From: Thermococcus sp. MAR1
GTDB taxonomy: Archaea; Methanobacteriota_B; Thermococci; Thermococcales; Thermococcaceae
Direction of reading: 5' to 3'
Assembly (NCBI RefSeq): GCF_012027305.1
Contig: NZ_SNUF01000001.1
Coordinates: 62,001-126,000, forward strand
Length of the DNA: 64,000 nt
Shown: piece after piece, positions 17,731-24,344 of the stretch
Numbering within the stretch: position 1 is the first letter of the stretch
Layout: every line of letters begins with the position of its first letter
Made by a program: the position numbers and the translations under genes
Notes under the pieces: generated by a model
The model's input: only the letters and a program-made list of their open reading frames with translations
Databases searched by the model: none
What the model was told of the DNA's origin: nothing

Positions 17731-18339
17731 CTGAAGCTTTATCGTACTGGTGAAGTCGCCAAGAAACTTGGAGTTTCAAAGATGACGGTTCTGAGATGGA
17801 TTAAATCAGGCAAGCTGAAAGCTCACAGAATTGGAAAAGAATACCGAGTTCCAGAGAGTGAAATTCTGAGAATTCTCGAAGGAAAACTTCCCGATAAAGT
17901 TGTCATTTACGCCAGAGTTTCAAGCAGAGACCAAAAAGAGGACTTGGAGAGACAGGTCGAATACCTCAAAAACTACTGTTCTTCAAAAGGATACCAAGTT
18001 GTGAAAATTCTCACTGACATTTCCTCCGGCCTGAACGAGAACAGAAAAGGCTTAAAACAACTCTTCAAATTGGTTGAGAGCGGAGAAGTTACCAGAGTCA
18101 TCATAACTTACCGGGACAGGCTCACGAGATTCGGCTTCAAATACCTCGAACAATACTTCAACTCACACGGCGTGGAAATTGAAGTAATCTTCGATGACGA
18201 TGAGAAGACGCCGGAAAAAGAACTCGTTGAGGACTTGCTGGCAATCGTAACTTCCTTCGCTGGAAAGCTTTATGGAATGCGTTCTCACAAGAAAAAACGC
18301 CTCGTCGAGGCGGTAAAGAATGCCCTCAGAAACGATTAA
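17731..18339 (+). CDS. tnpA: IS607 TnpA serine recombinase (non-ATG start)
   Basis: About 202 residues. The N-terminal MerR-type helix-turn-helix (LYRTGEVAKKLGVSKMTVLRWIKSGK) is followed by a short linker and the serine recombinase domain beginning VVIYARVSSRDQKEDLERQ, with the catalytic Ser in ARVSS. Homologues begin just before KLYRTGEVA. Here the codon at that position is CTG (17731) preceded by GAGAAGG, and no ATG, GTG or TTG lies further upstream in frame near it. The first ATG (17782) would delete the first HTH helix. Either CTG is used or the gene has lost its start. The rest of the frame is intact. Confidence 0.8.
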   Translation: MKLYRTGEVAKKLGVSKMTVLRWIKSGKLKAHRIGKEYRVPESEILRILEGKLPDKVVIYARVSSRDQKEDLERQVEYLKNYCSSKGYQVVKILTDISSGLNENRKGLKQLFKLVESGEVTRVIITYRDRLTRFGFKYLEQYFNSHGVEIEVIFDDDEKTPEKELVEDLLAIVTSFAGKLYGMRSHKKKRLVEAVKNALRND

Positions 18340-19501
18340 GCTAACAGCAAAATTCAAGCTGAAGGAAACTCCTGAAGGATTAGATGAGCTTTTCCAAACT
18401 TATCGTGAGATTGTGAACCTTCTCATAACTTACGCTTTTGAGAACAACGTTACCAGCTTTTACCGGCTGAAGAAGGAAACTTACAAGGGATTACGCAAAG
18501 AATACCACGAACTCCCAAGCCATTACCTTTACACGGCTTGCCAGATGGCCACTGCAATATTCAAGAGCTTTAGGAAGCGGAGAAAGAAGGGGAAAGCTGA
18601 GGGGAAGCCTATTTTTAAGAAGGAGGTCATAATGCTCGACGACCACTTATTCAAACTCGATTTAGAAAACAAAACCGTAAAACTCTCTACTCCAAACGGG
18701 AGAATTCAGCTGGAGTTTTATCCTGCCAAATACCACGAGAGGTTTAAGGATTGGGAGGTTGGGCAGGCTTGGCTTGTTAGAACGCCGAAAGGTGTTTTCC
18801 TCAACGCTGTCTTCTCAAAGGAAGTCGAGGTTGAAGAACCTAAAGCCTTTGTTGGAGTGGACTTGAACGAGAACAACGTAACCCTCTCCCTCCCAAACGG
18901 GAAATTCGTTCAAATTATCACTCATGAAAGGGAAATTAGGACGGGCTACTTTGTAAAGAGGCGGAAAATCCAGCAGAAAATTCGGAGTGGAAGAAAGAGG
19001 AAGGAACTCCTTGAAAAGTATGGGCGGAGGGAGAGGAACAGGCTTAACGACTTGTATCATAAACTTGCGAATAAAATCGTCGAGTTGGCGAAAAAATACG
19101 GTGGGATTGTCTTGGAGGATTTAACGGAAATCAGGGAGTCAATCAGGTATTCTGCTGAGATGAATGGTCGTTTGCACCGCTGGAGTTTTAGGAAGCTTCA
19201 GAGCATTATCGAATACAAGGCTAAATTGAAGGGCGTTAGGGTTGTTTTTGTGAATCCTGCTCACACTTCCTCCCTGTGCCCGATATGTGGGGAGAAATTA
19301 AGCCCGAATGGGCACAGGGTTTTGAAGTGCTCAAAGTGTGGGTTTGAAGCCGACCGTGATGTGGTCGGGAGTTGGAATATTCGCTTGAGGGCCCTGAAGA
19401 TGTGGGGAGTCTCCGTTCCCCCCGAAAGCCCTCCAATGAAGACGGGAGGAGGGAAGGTTATCCGCTACGATTGGTTCGCACGTTCCAAAAGTAGCGGATA
19501 A
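18320..19501 (+). CDS. tnpB: TnpB RNA-guided nuclease of IS607-type element
   Basis: A 393-residue TnpB, the Cas12 ancestor family that uses an RNA from the element's right end (omegaRNA) as guide. All catalytic features are present. RuvC-I Asp181 is in GVDLNEN, RuvC-II Glu266 in IVLEDL, and RuvC-III Asp345 in EADRDVVGSWNI. The zinc finger cysteines are 320, 323, 337 and 340 (CPIC ... CSKC). The start overlaps tnpA by 20 bases. The stop codon lies inside the right arm of a 13-bp hairpin stem. With every active-site residue retained it is probably functional, or only recently dormant. Confidence 0.92.
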   Translation: MPSETIKLTAKFKLKETPEGLDELFQTYREIVNLLITYAFENNVTSFYRLKKETYKGLRKEYHELPSHYLYTACQMATAIFKSFRKRRKKGKAEGKPIFKKEVIMLDDHLFKLDLENKTVKLSTPNGRIQLEFYPAKYHERFKDWEVGQAWLVRTPKGVFLNAVFSKEVEVEEPKAFVGVDLNENNVTLSLPNGKFVQIITHEREIRTGYFVKRRKIQQKIRSGRKRKELLEKYGRRERNRLNDLYHKLANKIVELAKKYGGIVLEDLTEIRESIRYSAEMNGRLHRWSFRKLQSIIEYKAKLKGVRVVFVNPAHTSSLCPICGEKLSPNGHRVLKCSKCGFEADRDVVGSWNIRLRALKMWGVSVPPESPPMKTGGGKVIRYDWFARSKSSG

Positions 19502-19510: not shown

Positions 19511-19792
19511 TTATAGGACGACCTTGAAGCGCTTTGCGCCTCCCAGGCCCAGACCGATGGCCTTGCTGTCAATGACGACGGCGTCACCATCGAGCTCTTC
19601 GACCACACGTATCTTGAGCCCGGAGAGCTCGAAAACCTCCTCATCTCCTCCGAACTCCTCGTTTATCTGCGCCATTATGAACTCGTAGGCCTCCTTTCCA
19701 AGAAGGACCACGTCGGGCTCGTATCCGTCGAGCTTGAGCTCGTTTGCCTTCTCCTCTGCGGTGCTCAGAACACGGATCAAATCCCCACGCAT
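19511..19792 (-). CDS. DUF1884 family protein (P. furiosus PF0899-like)
   Basis: 93 residues from ATG 19792, which follows GGTGTTGAAA; an upstream in-frame ATG at 19804 overlaps that ribosome site. The sequence (RGDLIRVLSTAEEKANELKLDGYEPD, VVIDSKAIGLGLGGAKRFKV) closely follows the small Pyrococcus protein PF0899, whose crystal structure was solved by structural genomics. The Pfam family DUF1884 has, as I recall, been grouped with HK97-like capsid folds; function is unknown. The IS607 element ends right after its stop codon, leaving the gene whole. Confidence 0.75.
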   Translation of the reverse strand: MRGDLIRVLSTAEEKANELKLDGYEPDVVLLGKEAYEFIMAQINEEFGGDEEVFELSGLKIRVVEELDGDAVVIDSKAIGLGLGGAKRFKVVL

Positions 19793-19841
19793 TTTCAACA
19801 CCATTTAGAGAGTTGGTGGGGAAGTTTAAAAGGGTGATTGC

Positions 19842-21131: not shown

Positions 21132-21190
21132 GAGCATCACCCCTCTCACCTCGGGCAAGGCCTTTAAAGGGGTTTCTGAAACTTAAGGTG

Positions 21191-22033
21191 ATGTACATCA
21201 GGCCCTTCGACCCCTGGAAGGCTAAGCTCTGCACCTGTCCGTTCAAGTACACCCTCAATGTGTACACCGGCTGTGACCACGCGTGCGTTTACTGCTACAT
21301 AACCTCCTACATCCCCAACGCCTTCCGCGTGAGAACGAAGGAGGGGCTTCTTCCAAAACTGGAGCGTGAGTTAAGGCGTTTTGACCGGCGCCACATAATA
21401 GCGCTCTCCTACTCCTCCGACCCGTATCCAACGATTGAGCGTGAGCTGGGCATAACCAGGAGCGTTCTCAAGCTCTTCAAACACTACGACGTCCGCTGTC
21501 TGATCCTCACAAAGTCAGACATCTTCGAGCGAGACCTGGATGTTCTTAGCGAGCTTAAGTGCGCCGTCGGGGTAACCGTCACGACGGTGGACGAGAGAAA
21601 GGCCAAGCTTCTGGAACCCAACGCGCCTTCACCCAAGGCCAGGATACGGGCCCTCAAAAAGGCCAAGGATGCGGGTATTCCAGTTTACGCGAGGATAGAC
21701 CCCATAATCCCCTTCTATACCTGGGAGGACTTCGATGAAACGCTCGACGCTTTAAGCTTTGTGAGCCACATCACCGTTTCGACCCTCAAGCTCAGGCCCG
21801 ACTCAAGGAAGAGAATGTTCGCCAAGTTTCCGGAGCTGATGGAAAGGCTGTGGCCCCTTTACGAGAAGGGTGAGAGGATAGGGGGCTATTACTACCTGCC
21901 TCGCGAGTTGAGATTTGAAATCCTGAGGGAGGCGGAGAGGAAGGTTCTGGGGAAAGGAATCACGTTCGGTTCGTGTCGTGAAGGTTACCGCTCGTTTCCG
22001 AGCTGTGATGGCTCTCATCTTGTTCCTTTGTGA
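21191..22033 (+). CDS. Radical SAM protein (spore-photoproduct-lyase-like subfamily)
   Basis: A 280-residue radical SAM enzyme with the cluster motif in TGCDHACVYCY near residue 28 (C-x3-C-x2-C). It also has the SplB-like pattern ALSYSSDPYPTIERELGITR near 75 and LTKS near 105. The C-terminal TFGSCREG...SCDGSHLVPL is conserved in this group and carries two extra cysteines. Substrate is unknown; the subfamily includes DNA photoproduct lyases and uncharacterised archaeal proteins. The last 74 bases overlap the convergent amidotransferase-like gene. The start is ATG 21191 (GTG 21188 in frame). Confidence 0.85.
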   Translation: MYIRPFDPWKAKLCTCPFKYTLNVYTGCDHACVYCYITSYIPNAFRVRTKEGLLPKLERELRRFDRRHIIALSYSSDPYPTIERELGITRSVLKLFKHYDVRCLILTKSDIFERDLDVLSELKCAVGVTVTTVDERKAKLLEPNAPSPKARIRALKKAKDAGIPVYARIDPIIPFYTWEDFDETLDALSFVSHITVSTLKLRPDSRKRMFAKFPELMERLWPLYEKGERIGGYYYLPRELRFEILREAERKVLGKGITFGSCREGYRSFPSCDGSHLVPL

Positions 22034-22805
22034 GCTCCTCCCTGAGCTCGGCCTCTATCTCTATCTTCTCCATCTCAAGCTTGCCCCTGCGATACTCGGA
22101 GGCGGCTTTGACGAAGGCCTCGAAGACCCTGTCCATCTCGGGCAGGTACTCCGGCTGCCACTGAAGGCCAATTATGAAGCCCTCGGTTCCCTCGATGGCC
22201 TCTATCAGACCGTCCACGGCGTAGGCAACTGGCTTTATTCCCTCACCGACCCTCTTAACCGCTTGGTGATGGAAGCTGTTGACCCTGAGATAAACCTCGT
22301 TGGTTCCCTCTATGTCCAGCTCGTCCTTGAGTATCTCGTAGAGGGTGGAGCTTGTCTTTATCCTGACGCCGTGAACCCTCTGGGTAGGCCCTATCAGCTC
22401 GACGTCCCAATCGTGCTTTATGGCTTTTGGGATGTCGTTCAGGTCCTGATAGAGCGTTCCCCCGAGGGCCACGTTTATCACATGCATCCCGCGGGAGATT
22501 CCGAGTATCGGAACACCCATCTCCACGGCCATCTTCACGAGCCGTATCTCAAACTCGTCTCTGTCAACATCAACGTATTTTATCGCACCCGAGGGATCCT
22601 CTCCGTAGAAGTGGGGATGGACATCTGGCCCCTCGATGAGCAGTACTCCGTCCACGTGCTCAAGGACTTCCTCGGGGGAGGAGTTTATGTTGAAAACCGC
22701 CGGAACGCCCCCGGCAGCGGTGACCTTCTCAACGTGCCTGCGGTCGAGAAAAAGCCTGTTTTTGGATGGGTCAACCTGACCTATTATGCCTATCAATGGC
22801 CTCAT
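21960..22805 (-). CDS. Class I glutamine-amidotransferase-like protein (C26 family) lacking Cys and His
   Basis: 281 residues from ATG 22805 (after GGTGGTGGTACTT). The fold is that of gamma-glutamyl-gamma-aminobutyrate hydrolases (peptidase family C26). The normal nucleophile motif GICRGMQ reads GISRGMH (Ser104, codon TCC), and the normal QWHPE reads QWQPE (Gln217). The NSFHHQAVK motif near 177 is kept. Both catalytic residues are therefore replaced, so classical glutaminase chemistry is not expected. It may be a ligand-binding pseudoenzyme. Its C-terminal ~25 residues overlap the radical SAM gene and are low-complexity. Confidence 0.85.
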   Translation of the reverse strand: MRPLIGIIGQVDPSKNRLFLDRRHVEKVTAAGGVPAVFNINSSPEEVLEHVDGVLLIEGPDVHPHFYGEDPSGAIKYVDVDRDEFEIRLVKMAVEMGVPILGISRGMHVINVALGGTLYQDLNDIPKAIKHDWDVELIGPTQRVHGVRIKTSSTLYEILKDELDIEGTNEVYLRVNSFHHQAVKRVGEGIKPVAYAVDGLIEAIEGTEGFIIGLQWQPEYLPEMDRVFEAFVKAASEYRRGKLEMEKIEIEAELREELTKEQDESHHSSETSGNLHDTNRT

Positions 22806-22873
22806 AAGTACCACCACCTAGTGATGTGTCCACGTCAGAATAAAAAGCTTTGCGGGAAGAAAAAGAAGGGACG

Positions 22874-24115
22874 TCAGCCCTTAAGGGCCTTTATCTCTTC
22901 CTCTATAACCTCTGCTAGTCTCCTGACGCCTTCGCGTATGGTCTCCTCCGGGACGTAGGTGAAGTTGAGACGCATGGTATTCTTAACGTCACGGTTAGCA
23001 AAGAACGCCTCACCGGGTACGTATGCAACGCCCCTGCTTATGGCCTTCTCTGCCATGAGTTTTGTGTCTATGCCCTCAGGTAGGGTCACCCAGATGAACA
23101 TTCCACCATCCGGTTTGGTCCACCTCACTCCTTCTGGCATGTACTCCTCTAGGGCCTCGAGCATGGCATCTCTGCGCGGTTTGTAGAACTCGATTATCTT
23201 GGGGATGTGCTCATCCAGGTGGCCGTCCTCGACGTACTTCCAGGCTATAACTTGGGCGAGGGTGTTAGCACAGAGGTCGACGGCCTGCTTGGCTATCTCT
23301 ATCTTCCTGATGAAATGTGGGTGCGCCGCAATCCATCCGAGCCTGAATCCGGGCGCGAGTATCTTTGAGAACGTTCCGAGGTAGAGGACTCTACCCTCGT
23401 CGTCAAAGTGCTTGATAGGAGGTATTGGCTCGCCGGAGTAGCGGAGTTCACTGTAGGGCCCATCCTCCACGATAAGGAAGTCGTACTCCTTGGCCAGCTC
23501 TATGAGTCTCTTCCTCCTTTCGAGGCTCATAGTCACTCCAGCCGGGTTCTGGAATGTGGAAACGGTGTACACGAACTTTACTTTCTCGCCCCGTTTTCTC
23601 AGCTCTTCCAGCTTCTCTTCAAGGAGGTCAATCCTCATTCCATCATCATCCATTGGAATGGTAACGAACCTGGGGTCGTAGTATTTGAACGCGTTGAGCG
23701 CCGCCAGGTAGGTTGGCCCCTCGACGACGACGATGTCCCCCGGGTTTATGAAGGTTCTCCCGATTAAGTCCAGAGCCTGCTGGCTTCCTGCCACCATCAT
23801 TATCTCCACTTTACTGGTCGGGATACCGTAGCGCTTCTCCATCCATTTCGCCAGCGCCAGCCGGAGGGGCGTGAATCCCTTCGTAGTGCCGTACTGAAGG
23901 GCCTTATCGGCATGGTGGGTTAGAACCTCGGCGGCTATCTTCTTGATGGTCTCAACGGGAAACGTCTCCGGAGCTGGAAGGCCGCCTGCAAGGGAGATGA
24001 CATCCCCCGCCTCAACGAGCTTGAGGAGTTCCCTAATCTCCGACGCCTTCATACCCTTGGCCTTCTCCGAGAAGTAGGCCTCAAAATCCAGTGAGCCAGA
24101 ACCCAGCTTGCGCAT
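22874..24115 (-). CDS. PLP-dependent aminotransferase class I (aromatic/kynurenine/2-aminoadipate type)
   Basis: About 413 residues. The PLP-binding lysine is in LGTFSKILAPGFRLGW, with VVEGPTYLAALNAF and VEDGPYSELRYSG around the cofactor. It closely follows the P. horikoshii PH0207 type aminotransferase, which has broad specificity for aromatic substrates and kynurenine. ATG 24115 is chosen because GGAGG precedes it and the length matches PH0207; in-frame starts at 24166 (after GGTGAC) and 24184 are also possible given a TATA box near 24206-24214. Divergent from the R15P isomerase gene, an order I recall also from T. kodakarensis (TK0185/TK0186). Confidence 0.9.
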   Translation of the reverse strand: MRKLGSGSLDFEAYFSEKAKGMKASEIRELLKLVEAGDVISLAGGLPAPETFPVETIKKIAAEVLTHHADKALQYGTTKGFTPLRLALAKWMEKRYGIPTSKVEIMMVAGSQQALDLIGRTFINPGDIVVVEGPTYLAALNAFKYYDPRFVTIPMDDDGMRIDLLEEKLEELRKRGEKVKFVYTVSTFQNPAGVTMSLERRKRLIELAKEYDFLIVEDGPYSELRYSGEPIPPIKHFDDEGRVLYLGTFSKILAPGFRLGWIAAHPHFIRKIEIAKQAVDLCANTLAQVIAWKYVEDGHLDEHIPKIIEFYKPRRDAMLEALEEYMPEGVRWTKPDGGMFIWVTLPEGIDTKLMAEKAISRGVAYVPGEAFFANRDVKNTMRLNFTYVPEETIREGVRRLAEVIEEEIKALKG

Positions 24116-24344
24116 AAGTTTTTCCTCCACTTCCGTTCCCCCCATTAGATGCACACTTTTGATCATGTCACCAAATCTATACACTTAAGAGGTAGCGGCG
24201 ATTGGTTATAAATCTTTCTGCAATGGTCGTTAGTGGCATTTACGTTTGTAAACTCAACAGCGAGAGTATTTTTAAGAACATCAAAGAACTGAAGGGAACA
24301 TGGGTGAACACAAAATCCCTATAAACCCTCCCGTCATAACCTGA

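Follow-up and report, generated by a model that had tools for sequence, protein, structure and literature searches.

A likely pseudoenzyme branch of the Peptidase_C26 family retained under purifying selection in Thermococcales

The window, by which we mean the whole 64,000-nucleotide stretch of Thermococcus sp. MAR1 DNA that was analysed, contains a gene for a class I amidotransferase-like protein in which the catalytic cysteine and the catalytic histidine both appear to be replaced. An earlier note, made from the sequence alone, had proposed that the protein is either a pseudoenzyme maintained by selection or an enzyme of changed chemistry. The locus thus raises the question of whether the two replacements are a local accident or a property of the family, and what such a protein could be kept for.

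The gene and its catalytic positions

The features on which the analysis depends are the following.

21188..22033, forward strand: convergent radical SAM protein, the 3' end of which overlaps the 3' end of the C26 gene by 74 nt (21960-22033)
21960..22805, reverse strand: Peptidase_C26/PuuD-like pseudoenzyme, 281 aa from the ATG at 22805, with the stop at 21960
22149..22151, reverse strand: codon of Glu219, third member of the former triad, retained in 69 of 73 orthologues (alignment)
22155..22157, reverse strand: codon of Gln217, at the catalytic His position (reading frame and alignment)
22263..22280, reverse strand: N176-S-F-H-H-Q181, invariant throughout the clade of 70 pseudoenzymes (alignment and parsimony)
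22494..22496, reverse strand: codon of Ser104, at the catalytic Cys position (reading frame and alignment)
22632..22634, reverse strand: codon of Glu58, which is Gly in 78 of 78 outgroup C26 proteins (EGPD versus GGxD; alignment)
22840..22850, reverse strand: apparent TATA-like element of the C26 gene itself (AAGCTTTTTAT), about 35-45 nt ahead of the ATG, picked out by eye and not as a scored motif
22874..24184, reverse strand: upstream neighbour, a class I aminotransferase, counterpart of T. kodakarensis TK0186 (Pfam, synteny and the available part of PMC11921379)

The frame at 21960-22805 was open throughout and an RBS-like GGTGGT preceded its ATG, in agreement with the earlier note. In-frame GTG codons lie ahead of the ATG at 22817 and 22814, and a start at 22817 would give a protein of 285 aa. 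The protein matched the PF07722 Peptidase_C26 profile with an E-value of 6.3e-53 (180.2 bits against a cut-off of 20.5) over residues 7-223, counted from the GTG; all other residue numbers are counted from the ATG, which reproduces the positions of the earlier note. The three motifs described previously were all found: GISRGMH, with Ser104 in place of the catalytic Cys; GLQWQPE, with Gln217 in place of the catalytic His; and an intact NSFHHQ within VNSFHHQ (residues 175-181). The Cys-His pair of Peptidase_C26 is therefore absent from the window protein, and Glu219 and VNSFHHQ are both present. Two further changes had been overlooked. The protein has IEGPD, not xGGxD, with Glu58 replacing Gly58, and the Gln found four residues after the elbow nucleophile in 77 of the 78 outgroup proteins is His108. 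In class I amidotransferases the Gln at position 108 contacts the substrate.

The outgroup consisted of 78 C26 homologues, i.e. the best 80 loci of a pattern scan of genome contigs minus two from Thermococci, and it had Cys, His, Glu219, and Gly58 in 78 of 78 proteins each. The scan patterns avoided sites 58, 104, 217, and 219 but included VNS[FY]HHQA or A[LT][GN]G[TS]LYQD, so that outgroup conservation at sites of about 113-121 and 175-182 is partly by construction; this bias does not apply to the 70 inactive proteins described below, which came from a search with the whole protein.

An AlphaFold2 model of the window protein (alignment of 53 proteins) had a pLDDT of 93.1, a pTM of 0.90, and a long C-terminal helix at residues 222-272; since it was built largely from intact-site homologues, the model cannot independently show an altered pocket. 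The closest PDB folds (Foldseek was also run) were PuuD (Z 32.7, rmsd 1.7, 235 residues aligned), Lin1909 (Z 32.6), and SpuA (Z 32.4). PuuD and SpuA, the gamma-glutamyl-GABA and gamma-glutamylpolyamine hydrolases of PF07722, have the same fold across residues 1 to 240-245 of the model (Z 31.0-32.7, rmsd 1.7-1.9, 29-31% identity), and NSIHGQ of SpuA aligns with the NSxHHQ region. Unlike them, the window protein is devoid of the Cys and His and carries the EGPD loop, and it scored 94.2 bits with the PuuD equivalog model NF008471 (NCBIfam), the cut-off of which is 266. The best sequence match among solved structures was the uncharacterised C26 protein Lin1909 (PDB 3fij; E 2e-33), which displays ICRGMQ and QWHPE where the window protein displays ISRGMH and QWQPE.

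Orthologues, copy number, and neighbours

We searched 94 Thermococcales genomes with the whole protein. Matches were found in 77 of them, and 74 were counted as holding an orthologue, distributed over the genome groups as 55 of 61 in g1, 7 of 7 in g5, 9 of 13 in g4, 2 of 3 in g2, 1 of 1 in g6, and 0 of 9 in g3. The first 200 residues of a protein from a named Thermococcus record (L083) are those of L028, which is the basis for reading g1 as Thermococcus; g2 we take to be Palaeococcus, g3 Pyrococcus or Pyrococcus-like, and genome G024 T. kodakarensis. Judged from the gene order after TK0185 and TK0186 in the available parts of PMC9700705 and PMC11921379, the G024 protein would be the one tagged TK0187. 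Three matches in g3 (G004, G006, and G009) were not accepted as orthologues, as they had E-values of 8e-5 to 9e-4 and lay within frames of 540-581 aa; they are presumably CTP synthases. The 20 genomes devoid of an orthologue include all nine of g3 and some that are incomplete, although G068, G075, G079, and G084 are 95-99% complete. Residues were compared in 73 proteins; the copy of G080 in g4 (L075), split by a frameshift, was left out of all residue counts, and L028 is truncated by the end of its contig. The frameshift in L075 may be real decay or a sequencing error.

A convergent radical SAM gene was present at 71 of the 73 orthologue loci, including all three loci with an intact catalytic site. 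The other two are L028, which ends at the contig edge, and L056, which lies in another neighbourhood. Because the radical SAM neighbour is common to both, the dead and the live forms occupy one locus. Tail-to-tail overlap of the two genes was seen at 67 of the 71 loci, 44 of which have an overlap of 71 or 74 nt, and since the conserved C-terminal motif of the radical SAM protein lies there, the shared 3' stretch is constrained. The C-terminal tail of the C26 protein (ESHHSSET...) was rejected as an independent functional element, being the antisense of the conserved CDGSHLV end of the radical SAM gene.

Among the matches listed, no more than three genomes, all of g4 (G077, G078, and G083), had a second full-length C26 gene (L076-L078), with GGGD, GICRGYQ, and QFHPE intact, besides the inactive one. 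A duplicate diverging beside a live copy was thus not seen in most genomes, among the PF07722 matches listed. The other PF07722 matches listed had E-values of about 1e-12 to 5e-11, covered part of the profile, and lay in frames of about 190-220 aa; we take these to be other class I amidotransferases. The retention of a single-copy gene after inactivation at its own locus suggests a further role that was present in the ancestral enzyme.

On a rival reading, the C26 protein would be a regulatory or structural partner of the upstream TK0186-type aminotransferase in one complex of amino-acid catabolism. The aminotransferase gene is the immediate upstream neighbour, in the same orientation, in 54 of the 55 g1 loci, another aminotransferase adjoins upstream in the intact-site genome G093, and TK0186p is described in the available part of PMC11921379 as an aminotransferase that takes a broad range of amino donors and uses glyoxylate as the acceptor. 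However, the gene is present in 90 of the 94 genomes (and in every one of the 74 with a completeness of 90% or more and a contamination of 5% or less), including the g3 genomes that have no C26 gene. It does not precede the C26 gene in the two g2 loci, or in the 14 g4 and g5 loci whose upstream sequence is long enough to judge (that of L062 amounts to 96 bases). The C26 gene also seems to have a TATA-like element of its own, read by eye, and in most of 14 upstream regions inspected by eye an A/T-rich TATA-like stretch stood ahead of the gene (L069 was unclear). In the part of PMC11921379 available, no second subunit of the TK0186 enzyme is mentioned. Since the aminotransferase is widespread and often non-adjacent, and the C26 gene seems to have its own TATA-like element, we rank the partnership as a rival and regard it as unlikely; the aminotransferase at 22874..24184 is probably not part of the C26 function. 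The neighbour in G093 (L066) is a different, paralogous class I aminotransferase, 42-43% identical, and for this reason the adjacency of a C26 and an aminotransferase gene seems to have arisen twice, with different paralogues.

The earlier note had also suggested a sensor of gamma-glutamyl compounds or polyamine conjugates. We saw no extra PuuA-like ligase in nine genomes tested, each of which has a single PF00120 (glutamine-synthetase-fold) gene that we take to be the ordinary glutamine synthetase; these genomes thus offer no gene of that family that could be a PuuA-like ligase. No polyamine gene was recognised by eye among the frames around the C26 gene, five of which were also compared with Pfam, or upstream in eight other loci. 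A sensor as such is possible, but its specific gamma-glutamyl or polyamine-conjugate form finds no support in these results.

Loss of the catalytic pair and the constraint that followed

The states of the catalytic site in the 73 orthologues were Gly (44), Cys (14), Ser (13), and Ala (2) at position 104; Gln (39), Leu (13), Arg (7), Trp (4), Asn (4), His (3), Gly (2), and Cys (1) at position 217; Glu (62), Asp (5), Gly (5), and Gln (1) at position 58; and Glu (69) and Gln (4) at position 219, with His at position 108 in 28. Ser and Gln are accordingly not fixed in Thermococcales, as positions 104 and 217 both vary. With the His missing from 70 of 73 proteins and the Cys from 59, we reject, on the basis of these alignments, a recent local mutation in a family that keeps both residues in most species. 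Cys and His occurred together only in L073 and L074 (g2) and L066 (g6), all three of which also have GGGD. Cys without His was found in 11 of the 73 (ten among L010-L022, and L054), Gly58 without Cys or His in two g1 proteins (L045 and L046), and Gln58 in L044.

A maximum-likelihood tree was built from the 73 orthologues and 20 outgroup proteins with columns 58, 60, 104, 108, and 217-219 excluded. The results showed that, even without these trait columns, the 70 inactive proteins form a single clade (support 100/97), the g2 pair (L073 and L074) being basal and L066 next; many of the outgroup proteins were long-branched. As the 70 unite in one clade, inactivation looks like one event. For the ancestor of the inactive clade, Fitch parsimony reconstructed E58, P60, and G104 and left 217 ambiguous (R or L). 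Inactivation would most simply have occurred once, in the common ancestor of g1, g4, and g5 (Thermococcus in the broad sense, three genera). On that one branch, to which the tree, alignment, and parsimony resolve the changes, His217 was lost, Cys104 was replaced by Gly, and GGxD was converted to EGPD. The reappearance of Cys104 in nested places without the His fits drift among small residues. The change to Gly perhaps relieved a strained nucleophile elbow: the elbow residue of class I amidotransferases has a strained backbone (available part of PMC5871853), and a Gly at 104 after the loss of catalysis would therefore be easy to understand.

To what extent the protein was constrained can be seen from the dN/dS values. 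The C26 core gave 0.053 summed and 0.048 as the median (21 of 22 close-relative pairs). Of its neighbours, the radical SAM gene had a summed value of 0.064 (16 of 21 pairs) and the aminotransferase gene one of 0.054 (12 of 16 pairs). Pairs were kept only at a dS of 0.1-1.5, and by the same rule the aminotransferase pairs L042/L043 and L043/L044, whose values were meaningless owing to misaligned frames, were excluded. The catalytic residues are thus lost across the orthologues under purifying selection, which, with the single inactive clade and the intact outgroup, bears out the reading of the protein as a pseudoenzyme under selection.

Within the clade of 70, parsimony counted eight changes at position 104, eight at 108, and ten at 217, the median site having six, so that 104 and 217 are only somewhat above the median and not the fastest sites (58th and 68th percentile). 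No change was counted at 105, 106, 176-181, 215, and 216, and 45 of 240 sites were unchanged overall. Invariant in all 70 proteins were Q120, H131, H145, N176, S177, H179, H180, Q181, D198, E202, and Q215, which are family-conserved residues around the site. Twenty of the 29 outgroup sites with a conservation of at least 95% were still conserved to at least 95%; the nine changed ones were 6, 58, 104, 108, 115, 217, 218, 219, and 228, although at 218 the three proteins with an intact site have Ala as well. Since these 20 sites persist while catalytic-site positions changed, relaxation affected mainly the chemical apparatus. P60 and P140 (both 70 of 70) and E223 (69 of 70) mark the inactive clade and occur in none of the three proteins with an intact site. 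I125, P126, and R148 of the inactive clade are common to L066 only, and H63, W133, K150, and others are common to all three.

The same data speak on other readings. The changed chemistry at the old site that the earlier note had considered is unlikely, as there is no conserved nucleophile and Gly is both the commonest and the parsimony-ancestral residue at 104. We would likewise give little credence to a different reaction employing the new Glu58 together with H131, H145, H179, and H180. Position 58 is acidic in 67 of the 70 pseudoenzymes and Gly throughout the outgroup, and P60 and the four His residues are invariant; however, the same His residues are found in 77-78 of the 78 ordinary enzymes and represent no new gain, and the inactive L045 and L046 (Gly58) and L044 (Gln58) do without the acidic residue.

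Serine can act as a nucleophile in related folds, and the protein might still be an active hydrolase through substitute residues, e.g. Ser104 in the clade of the window protein or His179, with Glu219 retained as noted. The predominance of Gly at 104 and the 11 proteins that have Cys104 but no His argue against this. In E. coli CPS, Cys and His are essential and Glu is not (available part of PMC5871853), so that the loss of both residues should abolish the chemistry. It is thus very unlikely that hydrolase activity persists. A decaying gene heading for loss is the least probable reading of all: the genomes without an orthologue and the split copy in G080 would be compatible with it, but the gene is as constrained as its neighbours, 70 inactive proteins are found in three genera after apparently one old event, and 45 of 240 sites are unchanged.

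A probable non-catalytic role for a former enzyme

The protein probably has a non-enzymatic job. The explanation that we favour, and consider rather more probable than the others together, is that of a single-copy pseudoenzyme inactivated in place and kept as a binding or regulatory protein with a frozen pocket. An ordinary single-copy C26 hydrolase of the PuuD type would have lost its chemistry in place; under strong purifying selection since then, the nucleophile and His positions have drifted while the family-conserved residues around them stayed. The protein would have a normal fold and would bind a small ligand or show its pocket to a partner, so that it would hydrolyse nothing and act in stoichiometric amounts, either as a sensor or as the regulatory subunit of a partner. 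The ancestral enzyme may have had the non-catalytic role alongside its catalysis before inactivation, because no duplicate was seen taking over before inactivation among the matches listed. Some findings do not sit easily with this explanation. The conserved residues could serve folding at high temperature and not binding; the old ligand may no longer fit, because position 108 is His in 28 of the 73 and Glu58, in the loop next to the oxyanion hole, might block a glutamyl ligand; and the C26 gene is dispensable, being absent from every g3 genome and from some of g1 and g4, and frameshifted in G080.

A more far-reaching form of the pseudoenzyme explanation, which we put forward as tentative and on balance doubtful, is that the only C26 copy was inactivated in place and kept for its prior non-catalytic role, and that the Glu58-Gly-Pro-Asp loop and the frozen His and Asn residues form a new binding (even catalytic) site. 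If this were true, a dead amidotransferase would have given Thermococcales a free-standing regulator that binds a metabolite.

Human CPS1 is, by analogy, a precedent for a dead class I amidotransferase. Its amidotransferase-like domain has the class I fold, carries Ser294 in place of the catalytic Cys, and is inactive yet kept, according to the available part of PMC4655335. The CPS1 domain is fused to the synthetase, whereas the window protein is free-standing, has lost the His too, and has a nucleophile position that is not fixed; in these respects the window family goes further than the CPS1 case. Frog CPS1 retains the triad and is still inactive (available part of PMC4655335), and for this reason residues alone do not settle activity. 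No paper on the present C26 protein was found by title or by the start of the abstract in the open-access literature, the lone match to TK0187 being an insect paper.

What emerges is a known family with a pseudoenzyme branch that extends over three genera, and the interpretation in the earlier note is, as a whole, partly supported. Family models call the protein a peptidase or gamma-glutamyl hydrolase relative, and a name derived from these models would be misleading for 70 of the 73 orthologues. As live-site (g2 and g6) and dead-site (g1, g4, and g5) orthologues share one locus in related organisms, the role of the former enzyme is open to direct test. Gene disruption is possible in T. kodakarensis (available part of PMC11921379), to which one dead orthologue apparently belongs.

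Elsewhere in the window, adjacent frames at 17782-19501 look by eye like an IS607-type element, in which a TnpB-like protein would accompany a serine recombinase (MTVLRWIKSGKLKAHRIG...). The frame at 19511-19804 encodes a 97-aa protein that matched PF08967 (E 7.2e-28), a putative type 4B encapsulin shell protein.
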